Below, piece after piece: positions 11,421 to 24,071 of a stretch of DNA of 35,016 nucleotides. The notes beneath the pieces were generated by a model. It searched no databases. It saw only the letters and a list, made by a program, of their open reading frames with translations, and had not been told where the DNA came from. The stretch's first letter is position 1, and each line of letters opens with the position of its first letter. The stretch covers positions 1-35,016 of IMG/VR virus record IMGVR_UViG_3300042883_001898; one strand, written 5' to 3'. The stretch comes from a virus. A program made the position numbers and the translations under genes.

Positions 11421-12569
11421 ATGAACATCACCACGCTCTTCCGCAATTTCGACCTGGAACCAGCAGATCAGATCGCCTTCGTCCAGGCGTTGCAGATTGG
11501 TCTCAAACTGTTTCCGAGTAACGAGTGTTGGCCGATGGACCAGGTGCGTCACATCGCGTTCGAGGGCTTCAACACCTCCAGGAAGACAACCCTGATCTAC
11601 CGAGGCGTCGATGCCAGACCGCTTCTTCTGGCGCTATCGGGTCAATTCCAAGGGGATGATGAGATCGCGATCCGCCGTCACATCTGCTCCTCCCCCTACT
11701 GTTTGAACCCCACGCACTACTTCTGGGGGACGAAAAGCCAGTTGATGCTGCAACAGCAGTCCAACCGCAAAAAGGGTTCCCTGTCGGTGGACCTGATTCA
11801 GAAGCTGCGGGTGGGGCGGCAGGAAGGGAAGCGGGTTTTGGATTTAGCGCGGCAATACAAGGTTCCCTACCACACGGCGAGGCGGATCTGTGCGGGTGAG
11901 ACTTATGAGAATCTAAATGAGATCAAAGAGGAGCTGCCGACCGAGGCGACGTGGAATCTCATCAATGAAATTTGCGCTTACATCATTAATTGCTACCCTG
12001 AAGAAGCGAAAGAGTACAGCTTGGCCGTGCAGGTCTCCAATACACTCGAATGCCCCTGGCATCGAAACGGCTTCCCAGGCCACAAGGGCAACTTTGGACT
12101 CATGGGAGAATGCTTGGACTGCATGGAAGAACTGAAAAAAGGTCGCTGCTCTGTCGACGTCACCAACTTTGACGTCAACTGGTACTGGCAGGTCAAACGA
12201 TTCTGGGAACAGGTCGACATCAAAGGTGAAGATGAGTGCTGGCCTTGGCTCGGCGCCACGCGAAAAGACAACACCGAATCCACCGCCTACTTCCCCAGCC
12301 CCTTCCACTCCGGCAAGGTTCATTCTGCTTCCAGGGTGGCTTTTTGGTTAAGCCGTGGCTACACCGGAAAGTACAGGGTTTTTGCTCGCCCAGAGTGCGA
12401 AAAGTTTTGTTGTAATCCTAAACATTTACACATTCGGGAGATTAAGGATCTAGCTGAACCCGCTAGTATGGGGGAAATAAAGCTGACCCATGGAAACATC
12501 TTCGAGTCCTATCGAAAAAATCTGTCAGAAAAACAGTCAAGTCCTCCCAACCAATTACCATCTTCCTGA
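11421..12569 (+). CDS. HNH-like protein with two zinc/HNH modules and an HTH
   Basis: A 382-aa protein of three parts. Residues about 30-110 hold NECWPMDQVRHIAFEG, then RRHICSSPYCLNPTHYFWGT. The last ~120 residues before the tail hold EDECWPWLGATRK, SASRVAFWLSRG and CEKFCCNPKHLHI. Both follow the 'eCW.W.G ... R..y....G ... C.NP.Hl' order of HNH_3-type homing nucleases, the second more closely. Between them, DLARQYKVPYHTARRICAG reads as a helix-turn-helix like those used for DNA recognition. A Cys pair with CPWH near 215 may be a third zinc site. The catalytic His pair of HNH is not clearly present in either module, so activity is uncertain. Start set by the promoter at 11369. Confidence 0.7.
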   Translation: MNITTLFRNFDLEPADQIAFVQALQIGLKLFPSNECWPMDQVRHIAFEGFNTSRKTTLIYRGVDARPLLLALSGQFQGDDEIAIRRHICSSPYCLNPTHYFWGTKSQLMLQQQSNRKKGSLSVDLIQKLRVGRQEGKRVLDLARQYKVPYHTARRICAGETYENLNEIKEELPTEATWNLINEICAYIINCYPEEAKEYSLAVQVSNTLECPWHRNGFPGHKGNFGLMGECLDCMEELKKGRCSVDVTNFDVNWYWQVKRFWEQVDIKGEDECWPWLGATRKDNTESTAYFPSPFHSGKVHSASRVAFWLSRGYTGKYRVFARPECEKFCCNPKHLHIREIKDLAEPASMGEIKLTHGNIFESYRKNLSEKQSSPPNQLPSS

Positions 12570-14879: not shown

Positions 14880-15284
14880 ATGTTGAGCTCCGATCCAACC
14901 CAGGGGTCCGAGAATGAGAATCAAGAAAAGTTCGGCATACGTAAGAGTACGCTTCATGGTCAAAAATATCCCTATATCGAAGAGTTTAGCGAGTTCTTAG
15001 CCAGTGTGTCCACTAAAGCGCTCAAATACCAACTGATGACCTCCCAACAGCGTTTAATGGCTAAGGCCCTTTGGGAGGCTACCAATTTCGGCGGCTCTAA
15101 AGAGAAGTGCATAGAGCATCTTACCAAGATATACGGACCACGGTGGCGTCAGGTCACCACGTTCGAAGAACACATGGAAGAAGAACGCGCTTACTGCGAG
15201 TATGTGCTGATTCTGGATCACATGAGGCAGTGGGACAAGCATCAAAAATTAGCTACACTTTGCGAAAGGCAGCCTAATCAATGA
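14880..15284 (+). CDS. Hypothetical protein (134 aa)
   Basis: Start set at ATG 14880; the frame is open further upstream but that part overlaps the divergent gene and is unlike a protein. Contains KYPYIEEFSEFLASVSTKAL, QRLMAKALWEATNFGGSKEK and EEERAYCEYVLILDHMRQWD. All-helical and charged. No family recognised. The first gene of a tight plus-strand operon; its stop overlaps the next ATG by 4 nt (ATGA). Confidence 0.68.
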   Translation: MLSSDPTQGSENENQEKFGIRKSTLHGQKYPYIEEFSEFLASVSTKALKYQLMTSQQRLMAKALWEATNFGGSKEKCIEHLTKIYGPRWRQVTTFEEHMEEERAYCEYVLILDHMRQWDKHQKLATLCERQPNQ

Positions 15285-15877
15285 CGGAGAACAGGGTCGA
15301 AGACTGGCTCGACATTCTTGACAAAACTGAATTTGAGCTAGACGCAGACGCTGGGAATACCTACCAGAGCTACCGGTTCGCTTCTCTGGACATCAATGAG
15401 GTGACTGTCGACAATTATAAAGACAAGCTGGTTAATTCCCTGGCGGAACAGGTTGAGATCTTTCTACCACCCTCCGGTAGCTTTGAAACACTGGATCTTC
15501 GGCGGTACCTTGAGCTCGTCTCCAGTTATGAAACCAGTACAACGGACCTGATGATGGGCCTGTCGCTGGCTGATCAAATCCGACTGACGTTCAGCGATAT
15601 GAAAACCAGCACCATCTGCGACCGCTACCCGGACATTGGCTTGGCTGAGAAACGGAGGTATCGTTGCGTAGCCGAATATCTTATCCGCCAGGGGGAACTG
15701 ACGAAGCTACGGGATGAGCACGGGAAACTGATTAAAAAAATTGGTAATATGCAGAAAGCTGTGGTTTTATACAAACCACTACCCAAGTTATTGGAGACTC
15801 TCAAGCGCTCTGGATTGGGACATCTCGTCAAAAAGAGTCAGGAAACCCAACCAAGCGAATCACAACAAGCGCAGTAA
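15281..15877 (+). CDS. Hypothetical protein (198 aa)
   Basis: Coupled to the previous gene by ATGA overlap. A 198-residue helical protein with segments DLMMGLSLADQIRLTFSDMK, ICDRYPDIGLAEKRRYRCV and KLRDEHGKLIKKIGNMQKAV, and a low-complexity Gln/Ser end. The middle resembles a small helical bundle that could bind nucleic acid, but there is no match to a known family. Its stop is 22 nt before the next start. Confidence 0.7.
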   Translation: MTENRVEDWLDILDKTEFELDADAGNTYQSYRFASLDINEVTVDNYKDKLVNSLAEQVEIFLPPSGSFETLDLRRYLELVSSYETSTTDLMMGLSLADQIRLTFSDMKTSTICDRYPDIGLAEKRRYRCVAEYLIRQGELTKLRDEHGKLIKKIGNMQKAVVLYKPLPKLLETLKRSGLGHLVKKSQETQPSESQQAQ

Positions 15878-17486: not shown

Positions 17487-17668
17487 ACAATTACTCGCTG
17501 GAACTGCAGTTAATCGATGCGCTAGATCAAATCAAGGATCTATCCCCGGACGCGGCGGAGATCCTAGACCGCTGGGTTTCTCATTCCAAAGACGAAAAAA
17601 ATGCTTCAGAGCATGTCCAGACGGATCCCAGCTCAGTATCTTCCCTTCCAGATACTCAATCGCCTTGA
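17465..17668 (+). CDS. Small hypothetical protein (67 aa)
   Basis: Starts at ATG 17465, 22 nt inside the Nmad1-like gene. Acidic, helical first half (DNYSLELQLIDALDQIKDLS, AAEILDRWVSHSKDEKN) and a Ser/Pro-rich second half. The last 137 nt are antisense to the C-terminus of the lysozyme-like gene, so one of the two may be shorter than annotated. The first ~45 residues look like a real protein. Confidence 0.5.
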   Translation: MQYDEFIDNYSLELQLIDALDQIKDLSPDAAEILDRWVSHSKDEKNASEHVQTDPSSVSSLPDTQSP

Positions 17669-18302
17669 TTTGATTATGGACTCCCGTGTAAGTCTCGGGT
17701 AAGTTCAACAGACAAACCTTGAGTTTGCAGTTGTGTTCCGTGAAGGTGGGAATCTCCCTGTCGGGAGCTAAAAACGTATCCAGTTCTGCCCGCCGTCGGT
17801 TGACAATTGATTCACCGCCAGAAAGCCACATCTTATTGATGTATGGACTCCACTCACGAATGATCTCTTTTTTGCTGGCGTGAGAGTTAATCAGAGCCAG
17901 CAGGCGCGATTCCTTAAAGCCCGTCACTCCTAAGTTGTGTGCGAATGACATGATGGCCGCCTTTCGGTTCTTATTTAAAGGCACAAAAATATACGGTTCG
18001 ATCTGTTTGGTAAATTCTTTTAGATCCTCAATCAGCTGCTCTTCAATCTGTTTTCGGGTCGCGACTTCGTGGTATCCAACCCAGTGCTTGTTTATTTTCT
18101 TGCTACCGTATCCAATGCGCCAGATGTCCTCTCCGTATTCTTTGTATGAACCAAAACGCCCCATACCTAAATTGGTACGGGGCTGCGTGTGGCGTTTAAT
18201 TAGTTCAACTCCTTTCGGAGTGAGCAGCGGGTACTCACTCCAATCTTCAGTATTCTTACGGGACGACGACGCTGCCAGTGTAGGAAACTTCAGAATAGCC
18301 AT
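17532..18302 (-). CDS. Lysozyme-like (GH24-type) protein lacking the catalytic Glu
   Basis: A 256-aa protein. The first ~170 residues keep the GH24 layout: LLTPKGVELIKRH, DIWRIGYGSKKI, RKAAIMSFAHNLG, FKESRLLALIN and VNRRRAELDTFL. In active GH24 enzymes the first helix ends in (F/Y)EG; here that position reads IKRHTQPRT, so the catalytic Glu is missing, while the true endolysin at 22824-24071 has KLIKSFEG. The C-terminal ~80 residues end in a basic Pro/Gly tail. I recall similar proteins in cyanophages, some called lysozyme. A structural or baseplate role, or a changed catalytic centre, is more likely than host lysis. It starts 47 nt inside the gene ahead of it. Confidence 0.8.
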   Translation of the reverse strand: MAILKFPTLAASSSRKNTEDWSEYPLLTPKGVELIKRHTQPRTNLGMGRFGSYKEYGEDIWRIGYGSKKINKHWVGYHEVATRKQIEEQLIEDLKEFTKQIEPYIFVPLNKNRKAAIMSFAHNLGVTGFKESRLLALINSHASKKEIIREWSPYINKMWLSGGESIVNRRRAELDTFLAPDREIPTFTEHNCKLKVCLLNLPETYTGVHNQIKAIEYLEGKILSWDPSGHALKHFFRLWNEKPSGLGSPPRPGIDP

Positions 18303-19204: not shown

Positions 19205-19999
19205 ATGATCAGCAACCAACTCGTCGCGGAATTTATGAAATCAGCGGTTGGTGGCGTGAGCAGGACGCAACTGATTAGGACCATGAGGGAGCGCCATGGA
19301 CTGGGGGATGGCGAAATTGATCAGGTCATCCACCTGTGCTCATTTAGAAGTCGGCCGTCCAACATTAATTACAAAAATTTCTACGGCGCCAAGATCACCA
19401 AAACGGGGAATCGGATTTTTTATCCGTTTACTCAAATTTATACTTACGACAACATTTTAACCAAAGATGAATGTGAGGCCTTGATAAGGCTCATTGATAC
19501 TCGCTTGAGACCTTCAACTGTCTCCGATGACGCAGATTCATGCTTGGTTTCAGACTACAGAACTAGCCAAACCTCAGACCTGCACTACTTTGACGACCCT
19601 CTTTACCTGGAGCTAGACAGGAAAATTGTAGACACTTTAGGGCTCTATAGTTTTCTCGGTGAGATTATGCAAGCACAAAAATATGAGCCTGGTCAATACT
19701 ATAAAGAGCACTGGGACTTCTTCATGCCCACCACAAAGGAATACAAAATTTACTGCGAATGGATGGGGCAGCGAACTTGGACCGCTATGGTCTATCTCAA
19801 TGATGTTGAAGAGGGTGGTGAAACGTATTTCAAGCACCTAAATCTTCATGTAAAGCCCAAACAGGGAATGCTGGTCGTCTGGAATAATCTCTATAAAAAT
19901 GGACTACCCAATCTAAAAACTATGCATGAGGCGTGCCCGCCCCTCAGTGGAAACAAATATGTAATTACTAAGTGGTTCCGCAGCTGGAGTTTAATTTAG
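19205..19999 (+). CDS. 2OG-Fe(II) oxygenase, prolyl-4-hydroxylase type
   Basis: A 264-aa protein whose C-terminal ~180 residues form a double-stranded beta-helix dioxygenase. The iron ligands are His169 and Asp171 (YKEHWDFF) and His241 (KTMHEACPP); the 2-oxoglutarate-binding basic residue lies just after in YVITKWFRSW. The region RTWTAMVYLNDVEEGGETYF is the typical strand before the distal His. These enzymes hydroxylate a proline or other side chain using oxygen and 2-oxoglutarate. Cyanophages often carry such genes, though the substrate is unknown. The first ~60 residues look like a small helical adaptor region, VSRTQLIRTMRERHG. It ends in a 4-nt overlap with the convergent gene. Confidence 0.9.
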   Translation: MISNQLVAEFMKSAVGGVSRTQLIRTMRERHGLGDGEIDQVIHLCSFRSRPSNINYKNFYGAKITKTGNRIFYPFTQIYTYDNILTKDECEALIRLIDTRLRPSTVSDDADSCLVSDYRTSQTSDLHYFDDPLYLELDRKIVDTLGLYSFLGEIMQAQKYEPGQYYKEHWDFFMPTTKEYKIYCEWMGQRTWTAMVYLNDVEEGGETYFKHLNLHVKPKQGMLVVWNNLYKNGLPNLKTMHEACPPLSGNKYVITKWFRSWSLI

Positions 20000-20340
20000 T
20001 TAGCGGCAATACTAAATTTAACGACGGCATCCGTGCCGCCGGTTTCGTGATAAAAATTAGCGCGTAAATGACCAACCGGAAATCCGTTAACGTAATAGAG
20101 ATAAGTTCCGTTCTCAATAATTGTGTTTGAGATTAGCGGACCATAATTAATACCATCAATGCTGCCATCAAGGCGTACCACAACAGAAGTGTTGATGTTG
20201 GTTACGGTCGCACTCAGCGTGTAGTTGCGGGTCGACAGGTAATTGGCCACCAATACGTCGATTGTATCGGTCAAACCGGGGGCTGTAAGCTCAGGAAAGT
20301 TCTGTACCAGCGTCTGCTGGTAACCCTCAAAGAAACCCAT
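19996..20340 (-). CDS. Hypothetical beta-rich virion protein (114 aa)
   Basis: 114 residues, Asn/Thr/Ile/Val-rich: DTIDVLVANYLSTRNYTLSA, TVTNINTSVVVRLDGSIDGI and YLYYVNGFPVGHLRANFYHE. An all-beta fold like tail-associated or fibre-tip proteins is likely, with a short helical N-terminus. No family recognised. Ends in a 4-nt overlap with the convergent oxygenase gene. Confidence 0.68.
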   Translation of the reverse strand: MGFFEGYQQTLVQNFPELTAPGLTDTIDVLVANYLSTRNYTLSATVTNINTSVVVRLDGSIDGINYGPLISNTIIENGTYLYYVNGFPVGHLRANFYHETGGTDAVVKFSIAAN

Positions 20341-20363: not shown

Positions 20364-20828
20364 CTAAGCGTCCAGGTTGGCTTTGAGAAGCCACTGGAAC
20401 TTCTTGTGGACCCGCCCACGCTCAACGGCCAAGTCAAGCGTCAGTTGATCGCCAAGGGTCTCAGCCATAGCTGCTAAATCCTGGAAGCGGTCAGCCAGCG
20501 CGTTTTGATTGGCGGCCAACTGGCTGATGATCACCTCTTGCTTGAAGCAGTCTTCCAGAGGGACGGCGGGGAGATTGGAATAGGTTAGGTCTTCGACGGT
20601 CTTAGGCGTCGCAATGTCCAGAGAGCGGATATGTTCCGCGATTACGTCGAGAGCTTCCTGCATCTCTTCGTAAATCATTTGAGTCAGCGTATGGATTTGG
20701 TAAAACTTGCTACCCATCAAACCCCAATGGACAAGCAGGGTTTGCTGATACAGGTGCATCGAATCGCGCAGGCACTGAACCAAGTGGGAGTAGCAGGCGC
20801 TCGTCTTGTTTGTTTGGGGTTTTGCCAT
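20364..20828 (-). CDS. Dps-like ferritin-family protein
   Basis: 154 residues from ATG 20828 (an in-frame GTG at 20840 would add four and overlap the next gene). The Dps ferroxidase pattern is seen with exact spacing: His34 in LLVHWGLMG, His46 in KFYQIHTLTQ, Asp61 and Glu65 in LDVIAEHI, matching E. coli Dps H51, H63, D78 and E82 offsets of 12, 27 and 31. The variable position (E. coli D67) is Gln50. Four long helices follow the Dps plan. Dps oxidises iron with hydrogen peroxide and many members bind DNA; the N-terminus here is short and only mildly basic. It may protect the infected cell or phage DNA from oxidative damage. Adjacent to the DUF6321-like gene on the same strand. Confidence 0.83.
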   Translation of the reverse strand: MAKPQTNKTSACYSHLVQCLRDSMHLYQQTLLVHWGLMGSKFYQIHTLTQMIYEEMQEALDVIAEHIRSLDIATPKTVEDLTYSNLPAVPLEDCFKQEVIISQLAANQNALADRFQDLAAMAETLGDQLTLDLAVERGRVHKKFQWLLKANLDA

Positions 20829-20833
20829 GGGTT

Positions 20834-21133
20834 TTACCACTTAACTTTGTCGGCCCAATATGCGGCTGAGCCTTTACCTTTTGCGATATTTTTTGCGTGC
20901 CTAGCCTTAAAACTAGCACGTTTTTTCTTCATTCTTTCCGATTCACCTTCTTTAGGTTTACCAGCCGTTTCAGCTCCTTGTTCACCGAATCTAATTATCT
21001 TTTCTCCTCCAGGTACATCATCACCACACGCTCGAACAACGTGTGATTTTGTTGGATGATCTGGTGTTCGTACGGGCTTGTTACATTTTAGCCGTTCAAC
21101 AGCCAGCCGCTTAGCCTTCGCTCGGTCAGCCAT
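20834..21133 (-). CDS. DUF6321-like basic protein (99 aa)
   Basis: Start ATG 21133, 2 nt after the stop of the 59-aa gene (TGA-TC-ATG). Strongly basic. Contains NKPVRTPDHPTKSHVVRACG, EKIIRFGEQGAETAGKP and a C-terminal KARHAKNIAKGKGSAAYWAD, which matches the DUF6321 pattern (P.rtp.HptKSHvV, iRFG.qG, FkaRHaknia.Gk.sa.yWa...kw). The family occurs in phages and cyanobacteria and has no established function. Its charge suggests DNA or RNA binding. It ends 6 nt before the Dps-like gene and probably shares a transcript. Confidence 0.8.
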   Translation of the reverse strand: MADRAKAKRLAVERLKCNKPVRTPDHPTKSHVVRACGDDVPGGEKIIRFGEQGAETAGKPKEGESERMKKKRASFKARHAKNIAKGKGSAAYWADKVKW

Positions 21134-21135
21134 GA

Positions 21136-21315
21136 TCAAACAATAATCTCTCGATTCATCGCTTTAGTTTTAATATCAGTTGCCTCTTCTCCTTGCGCCA
21201 AGCGCTGGAAACCTGAAGGGATTCGCGCACGCTGAAGCTCCTGAATGGCTTTTTCTACGTAGCCATCCAGAAACTCTTTTCCGTTAGGTCGCGACCCAGC
21301 CGATGTAGAAATCAT
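21136..21315 (-). CDS. Small hypothetical protein (59 aa)
   Basis: ATG at 21313-21315 lies within the end of the HNH gene (32-nt overlap), and the stop TGA is 2 nt before the DUF6321-like start. The protein reads STSAGSRPNGKEFLDGYVEK, AIQELQRARIPSGFQRLAQG and ends TKAMNREIIV. It looks helical and soluble. No family recognised. Translational coupling with the flanking genes supports it. Confidence 0.65.
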   Translation of the reverse strand: MISTSAGSRPNGKEFLDGYVEKAIQELQRARIPSGFQRLAQGEEATDIKTKAMNREIIV

Positions 21316-21694
21316 TGGAGATGTAAGGAACCGCCTGTTCCGTCGATGGGAGCTTGATGGAACAAGGTTTTTGCTCCATCCATTTATTTAGTTTATCAAG
21401 TCTTTTCTCGCAATAAATTGGTAAATCTGGAGTAAACCAAACGTTGACTAACGTACTGGCTTTGGATCGATTGCAGTTTGAACAGGCTGCGGCCATGTTC
21501 CAGCGAACATTTTGACCGCCCTTGTGTTTGGGGATAATGTGATCGATTGTGGCTGTATGTTCACTGAGTTGTTTATCGCAATAAGCACAGCGCCATCCCC
21601 AGGCTTCAAAGATGTGCTGCCTAAATTTGCGACGCGCAAGTTTCGGAGTTAAAACAACGAGATTGACCAGGAGATCATCTTCGCAGTTGAACAT
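21284..21694 (-). CDS. HNH endonuclease (McrA-type)
   Basis: 136 residues. Core: FEAWGWRCAYCDKQLSEHTA, TIDHIIPKHKGGQNVRWNM, ACSNCNRSKAS. Two CxxC pairs bind zinc, and the DHIIPK and N..N positions give the catalytic His/Asn set. This is a standard small HNH nuclease, either a homing-type mobile gene or a packaging-associated nicking enzyme. No terminase or portal is nearby, and its position next to a tRNA cluster and a second HNH favours the mobile-gene view. Confidence 0.88.
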   Translation of the reverse strand: MFNCEDDLLVNLVVLTPKLARRKFRQHIFEAWGWRCAYCDKQLSEHTATIDHIIPKHKGGQNVRWNMAAACSNCNRSKASTLVNVWFTPDLPIYCEKRLDKLNKWMEQKPCSIKLPSTEQAVPYISNDFYIGWVAT

Positions 21695-21765: not shown

Positions 21766-21840
21766 GGGAACGTAGCCCAATCGGAAGCAGGCAAGCGACT
21801 TAAAATCGCTACAGTGTGGGTTCAAATCCCACCGTTCCTA
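21766..21840 (+). tRNA. tRNA-Leu (anticodon UAA), class-I-shaped
   Basis: Acceptor GGGAACG/CGTTCCT (one G:U pair), anticodon stem AGCGA/TCGCT with loop CTTAAAA (anticodon UAA), T-arm GTGGG/CCCAC with loop TTCAAAT, discriminator A. All stems fit. The variable region is only 5 nt (ACAGT), whereas bacterial tRNA-Leu usually has a long extra arm. CCA is not encoded. The anticodon reads UUA/UUG. Confidence 0.88.
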
Positions 21841-21843
21841 CTA

Positions 21844-21918
21844 CGGGGTGTAGCTCAGCTTGATTAGAGCGGTCGCTTTGGGAGCGACAGGCCGAAGGTT
21901 TGAATCCTTCCACTCCGA
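21844..21918 (+). tRNA. tRNA-Pro (anticodon UGG)
   Basis: Acceptor CGGGGTG/CACTCCG (one G:U), anticodon stem GTCGC/GCGAC with loop TTTGGGA (anticodon UGG), T-arm GAAGG/CCTTC with loop TTTGAAT, discriminator A. Lies 3 nt after tRNA-Leu and ends exactly one base before the stop of the convergent HNH gene. CCA is not encoded. Confidence 0.92.
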
Positions 21919-22823: not shown

Positions 22824-24071
22824 TCACTTTAAACGTTTAAAGTCGTACCAACACCAGCCAGAGCCTCCCCCACCAACAAAAAATCGGGGGTTTAAGTTCT
22901 TGAAGCTGTAGCGAACATTGCGACCGTCAACGGCACCGGTTGAAGCCCAGCCGCCGTTCACCAGGTCCTGTTCACCGTAGGGGTCTTGGACTAGCCAATA
23001 ATCCCGGCCATAACCAGTAATAACCACAAAGTGGCCGCCACCAGAAGGGTCAGAAACAGTTCCATGATGAAGAATGCCGGCAACAACAGGGAGGCCCGAG
23101 TCAATTTGTTTTTTAACGTCATCCGAGTCTGCAGTTTGAGTAAACTTAGCGGATACACCTAACTCTGCCAAGGCTTTAAAATGAGGGTTGCGATAAATGG
23201 TGTCTCCGTACTTATTAACGATCTTCAAGTAGTCAGTATCGTCGTTAATACCGGGCGTATCTAAGTACTTCAGACACATTGCAATACTGCTCGTCTGACA
23301 CTGGCGCCAGCCTTCAGGGCCGTTATCCTTTTGATGAAAGTATGGGAAGTTACGGAGATAACGGAGATCACCGTCAATCGCGTAAGGATGGATCGTTGTC
23401 TTAGTGACAAGTCCGTCCCAGTGATCGTCGTAGATCCACCACTTACCAAGCCCGAAGCCCATTTCTACGTAGCTATGCTTGTCCTTACGATCAATAACAA
23501 AGCAATTTCGAATTGTTCTGCCTTTGTAAATATTGGCTTTTTCGTCACGACCTAACTCGACGGAAGGAACGAGTCGTTTTTTGAGCCAGGTATTAAATTT
23601 AGAAGTTATATCAATTAATCCAACCTTTACTTTCGGGGCTTCGCTGCAAAATAATTCAACCTCTGCGGAACGGCGGCGGCTCAAGCCCTCAAGGACTTTT
23701 CCGTCACCTTTATTCCACCTTGGCAGCTCTTCGGCAGCGACAATATTAGGGTTTTCTCCATTATTAAGACGTTTAACTAACGTTGAACCTTTAAAAGCCT
23801 GGGTTCCGACGTTAAAACAGAAGGAGACAAGTGCATCAAATTGATTTTGATTTAAATCAATGGTGACGTAATTTAATACTGCTTGCTCGAATTTAATGAG
23901 ATCTTGCTTGAGAAGTGCGTCGGCTTCTTTCTCGGTGATTTTTGTTCCAGCAAGCACGTTTCCGGTGTGACCGTAGCCAATGGTAAGTACACCGACAGGA
24001 CAGAGGTAGCTGGTGAGGCTTAGTCCCTCGAAAGATTTAATTAATTTGATGCCAGTGGGCGAAATTTTCAC
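22824..24071 (-). CDS. Bifunctional endolysin: GH24 lysozyme + C39-like peptidase
   Basis: 415 residues. The N-terminal ~145 residues form a GH24 lysozyme with the catalytic Glu15 in KLIKSFEGLSL, TIGYGHTGNV and LSRRRSAEVELF; a Cys replaces the usual Asp before the TIGYG motif, as in P21-like enzymes. A linker follows. The C-terminal ~180 residues form a papain-like C39-type domain: Cys258 in WRQCQTSSIAMCL, His347 in GGGHFVVITGYG, Asp363 in VQDPYGE. The enzyme could cut both sugar and peptide bonds of peptidoglycan. There is no signal peptide, so release should need a holin. The 84-aa membrane protein just upstream on this strand is the likely holin. Confidence 0.92.
   Translation of the reverse strand: MKISPTGIKLIKSFEGLSLTSYLCPVGVLTIGYGHTGNVLAGTKITEKEADALLKQDLIKFEQAVLNYVTIDLNQNQFDALVSFCFNVGTQAFKGSTLVKRLNNGENPNIVAAEELPRWNKGDGKVLEGLSRRRSAEVELFCSEAPKVKVGLIDITSKFNTWLKKRLVPSVELGRDEKANIYKGRTIRNCFVIDRKDKHSYVEMGFGLGKWWIYDDHWDGLVTKTTIHPYAIDGDLRYLRNFPYFHQKDNGPEGWRQCQTSSIAMCLKYLDTPGINDDTDYLKIVNKYGDTIYRNPHFKALAELGVSAKFTQTADSDDVKKQIDSGLPVVAGILHHGTVSDPSGGGHFVVITGYGRDYWLVQDPYGEQDLVNGGWASTGAVDGRNVRYSFKNLNPRFFVGGGGSGWCWYDFKRLK

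Follow-up and report, generated by a model that had tools for sequence, protein, structure and literature searches.

Dps proteins carried by phages have been published before, in Lactobacillus phages (PMC6669764) and in gut Gratiaviridae and others (PMC8008677), and the copy described here is therefore an advance in scale, lineage and context, not in kind. In Gratiaviridae, Dps was proposed to reduce iron and oxidative damage in infected hosts (PMC8008677), which is close to what we suggest below, although those phages infect anaerobic Bacteroides and the function is likewise a proposal there. PHROG 3636 holds members of the same fold family from the Lactobacillus phages Iacchus, Bromius and Semele and from the Synechococcus phages S-SRM01 and S-EIVl, all at about 29-31% identity to the protein studied here; Dps is annotated in both of the latter, which infect Synechococcus and in this respect agree with the likely host of our virus. 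The best match in the PDB, in sequence as well as in fold, is the Pseudomonas aeruginosa Dps PA0962 (PDB 8ff9-8ffd), whose crystallographic iron ligands are H37, H49, D64 and E68 and whose residue Q138 holds iron in the pore; it oxidises Fe2+ with H2O2, not with O2, and shields cells from H2O2 (PMC10002758). In Listeria Dps, a Trp/Tyr pair (W32/Y50) forms a radical trap (PMC10002758).

The window (the whole stretch of DNA that was analysed) comprises one virus record of 35 kb. An alignment covering 98% of its primase was obtained with Synechococcus phage S-EIVl, the sole phage record to reach that coverage, and S-EIVl shares further genes with the window, which by sequence comparison is a fragment of an S-EIV1-like cyanophage. 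Among 16 large contigs of the lineage, six carry psbA, 11 a ferritin-family gene and three both. Because of the S-EIVl kinship and the psbA genes in these contigs, the host is likely, as judged from the relatives, a cyanobacterium or oxygenic phototroph, and the photosynthetic host that the earlier note had assumed is thus probable. The lineage also has a good marker gene in the window, at 15281-15877 (+), whose 198-aa product has no Pfam or PHROG match, is 64-98% identical across the lineage and occurs in 269 or more stretches of viral contigs.

The Dps gene occupies positions 20364-20828 on the minus strand, with its ATG at 20828 and a stop codon ending at 20364, and encodes 154 amino acids; translation could also begin at an in-frame GTG at 20840. 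Translation confirmed these coordinates, as well as the positions of His34, His46, Gln50, Asp61 and Glu65 as first read from the letters. The protein matches the Pfam Ferritin family PF00210 (E=2.4e-12, 47.4 bits against a cut-off of 24.5) and shows a full-length match to the PHROG 3636 profile (E=3e-18, residues 13-152 on positions 9-147 of 149), and a phmmer search of the PDB matched 69 distinct sequences with E values of 1 or below, PA0962 coming first (E=1.6e-15) at about 29% identity. The Dps subfamily models of NCBIfam match only under their equivalog cut-offs. An AlphaFold model, built as a single chain together with 19 viral homologues (pLDDT 87), has helices at residues 8-36, 42-70, 78-81, 97-125 and 128-153, i.e. 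four long helices and a short BC-loop helix, which is a Dps-type layout with no fifth C-terminal helix. When this model was compared with the PDB by Foldseek, PA0962 ranked first (probability 1.00, TM 0.84, rmsd 2.0) in a top list made up of Dps-family proteins throughout. The family resemblance to Dps is far above chance, and the Dps-like ferritin originally proposed is upheld by the Pfam, PHROG and PDB searches and by Foldseek alike: the gene encodes a Dps mini-ferritin of an S-EIV1-like cyanophage. A role as a defence gene was also considered and rejected, the PADLOC match for Dps being weak and partial.

The metal site consists of a His-x11-His and an Asp-x3-Glu motif with Dps spacing (H34, H46, D61 and E65, spaced H-12-H-15-D-4-E), conserved in homologues, and the spacing that the earlier note had recognised as that of Dps proves identical to that of the crystallographic ligands of PA0962. 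The Trp beside Fe1 in PA0962 is conserved as well. H34, W35, H46, D61 and E65 are invariant in 67 of 67 distinct viral sequences, a set that was fetched by motifs partly covering the metal site. Since those motifs contained the site, the ligand test was repeated on an independent set of 19 Dps copies (14 of them distinct) that had been picked solely by their proximity to an unrelated marker gene, and all four ligands and W35 were again invariant in the 14 distinct sequences. Both features that the earlier note had singled out as decisive, a four-helix ferritin bundle in the predicted structure and the four ligands in homologues, were thus found.

At position 50, Dps proteins of the Listeria and E. 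coli type have an Asp, whereas the window protein has Gln50 and therefore no additional carboxylate four residues beyond the second His. The suggestion that one ligand had been replaced by Gln50 therefore holds in comparison with Dps of that type, but not with PA0962, in which the aligned residue, a Glu, is not among the ligands. The position is also variable, being Q, E, G or N across the phages of both viral sets and Met in a Sphingomonas Dps, and in the tree E and Q interchange between near relatives, so that we do not regard Gln50 as a meaningful exchange of a ligand. As the bacterial set had been drawn with a motif fixing position 50 to Q, G or E, it was left out of this argument, and the position was judged from plasmid matches and PA0962 instead. 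Given that the PA0962 equivalent is not a ligand, a carboxylate at position 50 does not appear to define the PA0962-like subgroup and its absence is not to be taken as the loss of a ligand. The missing carboxylate might have a small effect on the second iron site, which could be weaker if Listeria Dps is a closer model for the protein than PA0962.

The pore acids D129 and D134 of PA0962 align with D127 and D132 of the window protein, and Q138 with E136. D127 is present in all viral sequences and D132 in nearly all, while position 136 is usually E or D, and alignment to the pore residues of PA0962 points to an acidic, ferritin-like three-fold pore. The Listeria radical-trap residues W32 and Y50 correspond to W35 and Y53, the latter being kept in 62 of the 67 viral sequences but in 6 of the 14 in the marker-selected set, where Gln replaces it in a divergent clade. 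The network of ten Tyr residues in PA0962 is partly present at best.

Because the protein is homologous to PA0962 and these residues are conserved, its most likely role would be H2O2-driven oxidation and storage of iron, which would limit Fenton damage. Taken as a whole, the best explanation, to which we give a probability of roughly 0.8, is that the phage Dps acts as a peroxide-dependent ferroxidase and iron store during infection. Its subunits would assemble into a 12-mer, in which interface sites formed by H34 and H46 of one subunit and D61 and E65 of the other would bind two Fe2+, and the bound Fe2+ would be oxidised, preferentially by H2O2. Iron would enter via the acidic three-fold pores (D127/D132/E136) and Fe3+ would be stored in the cavity, with W35 and Y53 quenching stray radicals. 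In an infected oxygenic phototroph, Fenton chemistry could in this way be held down, and phage and host DNA and machinery protected until lysis. The 12-mer, the ferroxidase activity, the preference for H2O2, the timing and the benefit to the phage are the parts of this explanation that we infer.

In regards to its genomic context, the gene order in Dps-positive relatives is HNH endonuclease, PHROG 7595 protein and Dps, although one clade has the last two in reverse order. In the window, the HNH endonuclease gene (21284-21694, minus strand; PF01844 and PF14279) forms the conserved outer boundary of the slot and is followed by the PHROG 7595 gene (20834-21133, minus strand), which encodes a small basic protein of 99 aa with a net charge of about +14 and stops 5 nt short of the Dps ATG. 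Directly downstream of Dps lies a gene for an uncharacterised protein of 114 aa (19996-20340, minus strand), which accompanies Dps in the majority of relatives, though not in every one, and then a 2OG-Fe(II) oxygenase gene (19205-19999, plus strand), which is convergent with the Dps strand and forms the slot boundary in many relatives; the oxygenase is itself iron-dependent. Further out, a tRNA-Leu (TAA) and a tRNA-Pro (TGG) lie back to back at 21766-21918 (+), opposite to the late-gene strand and between two HNH endonuclease genes, and the region is flanked by two separate phage lysozymes at 17532-18302 (-) and 22824-24071 (-), the second of which is a fusion with a C39-like peptidase domain. 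An unrelated marker was used to pick 72 contigs spanning the slot; Dps is present in 19 of them and absent from 53. In the Dps-less relatives the slot usually just closes up, and no replacement ferritin or catalase was seen in about a dozen such slots read by eye. Since 53 of the 72 syntenic relatives do without it, Dps is an optional, accessory gene that the lineage can dispense with, and where it does occur its genomic position is fixed.

The same absences bear on the suggestion that DNA binding or compaction is the main function of Dps, or that virions contain it as a means of shielding or condensing phage DNA, possibly with its basic neighbour as a partner; we consider this unlikely. Some observations do favour such a function, since the basic PHROG 7595 protein lies next to Dps in almost every Dps-positive locus whose flank is long enough, in either order, and a basic cluster (R137/R139/K142/K143) at the end of helix D is conserved and in part virus-specific, a conservation that is partly owed to the HKK motif used in the search. 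Moreover, three proteins of uncultured Caudovirales annotated as 'Prohead protease' have a Dps-like domain (BFVD A0A6J7XDU5, A0A6J7WPK9 and A0A6J7WIS1), which suggests natural Dps fusions that could reach proheads and would place Dps in the proheads of other phages. However, the window Dps has a net charge of -6, two Lys within its first 15 residues and no C-terminal tail, and DNA compaction by such an acidic protein with short tails appears less likely; a core part of the virion is disfavoured by its absence from 53 of 72 slot-spanning contigs, unlike what would be seen for a structural protein. We found no report of virion-packaged Dps in the literature searched. The compaction or virion packing envisaged by the earlier note is thus not supported, given the acidity of the protein, the lack of a convincing basic tail and the absence of the gene from most close relatives.

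As for the DNA-binding pair that had been thought conceivable, the near-constant adjacency stands in its favour, but PHROG 7595 is missing beside Dps in several contigs and is also present in many Dps-less relatives. It occurs in 47 phage records, among which S-EIVl alone has a Dps match, far off in the genome; these records span marine podo- and siphoviruses, and the protein is mostly unannotated in them. An obligate pair was rejected, given that each gene is found without the other, and the DNA-binding pair is weakly supported. The neighbour is indeed basic, but its description as DUF6321-like is less apt: the window copy has no Pfam match, PF19846 included, and its homologues fit DUF5754 better (found in 6 of 10 members, best 6e-12) than DUF6321 (3 of 10, best E 0.007). 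The structure prediction for this neighbour was poor (pLDDT 62).

A ferroxidase-impaired Dps put to another use, such as iron withholding or as a metal-dependent nuclease, seems to us quite improbable. It could account for the changing residue at position 50 (Q, E, G or N) and for H66, R139 and K142, which are virus-specific in comparison with bacterial relatives, and DNA cleavage in vitro was an unexpected property of PA0962, the nearest relative of solved structure (PMC10002758). Nevertheless, the gene is intact and under strong purifying selection (median dN/dS 0.028, maximum 0.10, in 119 comparable pairs), this selection has preserved all four crystallographic ligands as well as the pore acids, and no nuclease motif was identified.

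In the tree, all viral copies of this Dps group fall into a single clade (support 100/100), which a long branch separates from bacterial Dps. The closest cellular relatives found are chromosomal and plasmid Dps of alphaproteobacteria (Roseobacter group, Sphingomonas), which share the same ligands at 30-37% identity and differ in having AER where the phages have AEH and in the end of helix D (R139, K142 and Q145 in the phages). The best bacterial matches, alphaproteobacterial and pseudomonad, reach at most about 37% identity in a search that was motif-limited and may have missed cyanobacterial Dps, and for this reason the phage gene may still have come from a cyanobacterium. That Dps is a recent host-derived passenger without a selected function in the phage, as its patchy presence in a single slot might suggest, is extremely improbable in view of a dN/dS of about 0.03, the deep virus-specific clade so distant from any bacterial match and the identical slot across divergent contigs. 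S-EIVl (L023) carries at 11908-12462 a different, very divergent Dps, in which the equivalent of W35 is Leu; unlike the window gene, it adjoins sulfate adenylyltransferase, outside the PHROG 7595 slot, implying what would be a separate acquisition within the same broad lineage.

The notable feature of this locus is an old virus-specific Dps lineage at one fixed genome position. A broader reading is that in S-EIV1-like cyanophages, some with psbA, this long-diverged Dps, which has a conserved basic patch of its own in helix D, is a module devoted to the time of infection. Perhaps with the basic PHROG 7595 protein as a partner, it would detoxify the iron and peroxide produced by the photosynthesis that these phages keep going, or would even be loaded into virions; in this full form we regard the reading as doubtful. 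What the data do present is a mini-ferritin kept under strong selection, beside psbA in some genomes, in a lineage of cyanophages for which most sequences come from metagenomes. Near relatives with and without Dps in one slot are natural comparisons, by which the management of iron and reactive oxygen species by phages in phototrophs becomes testable.
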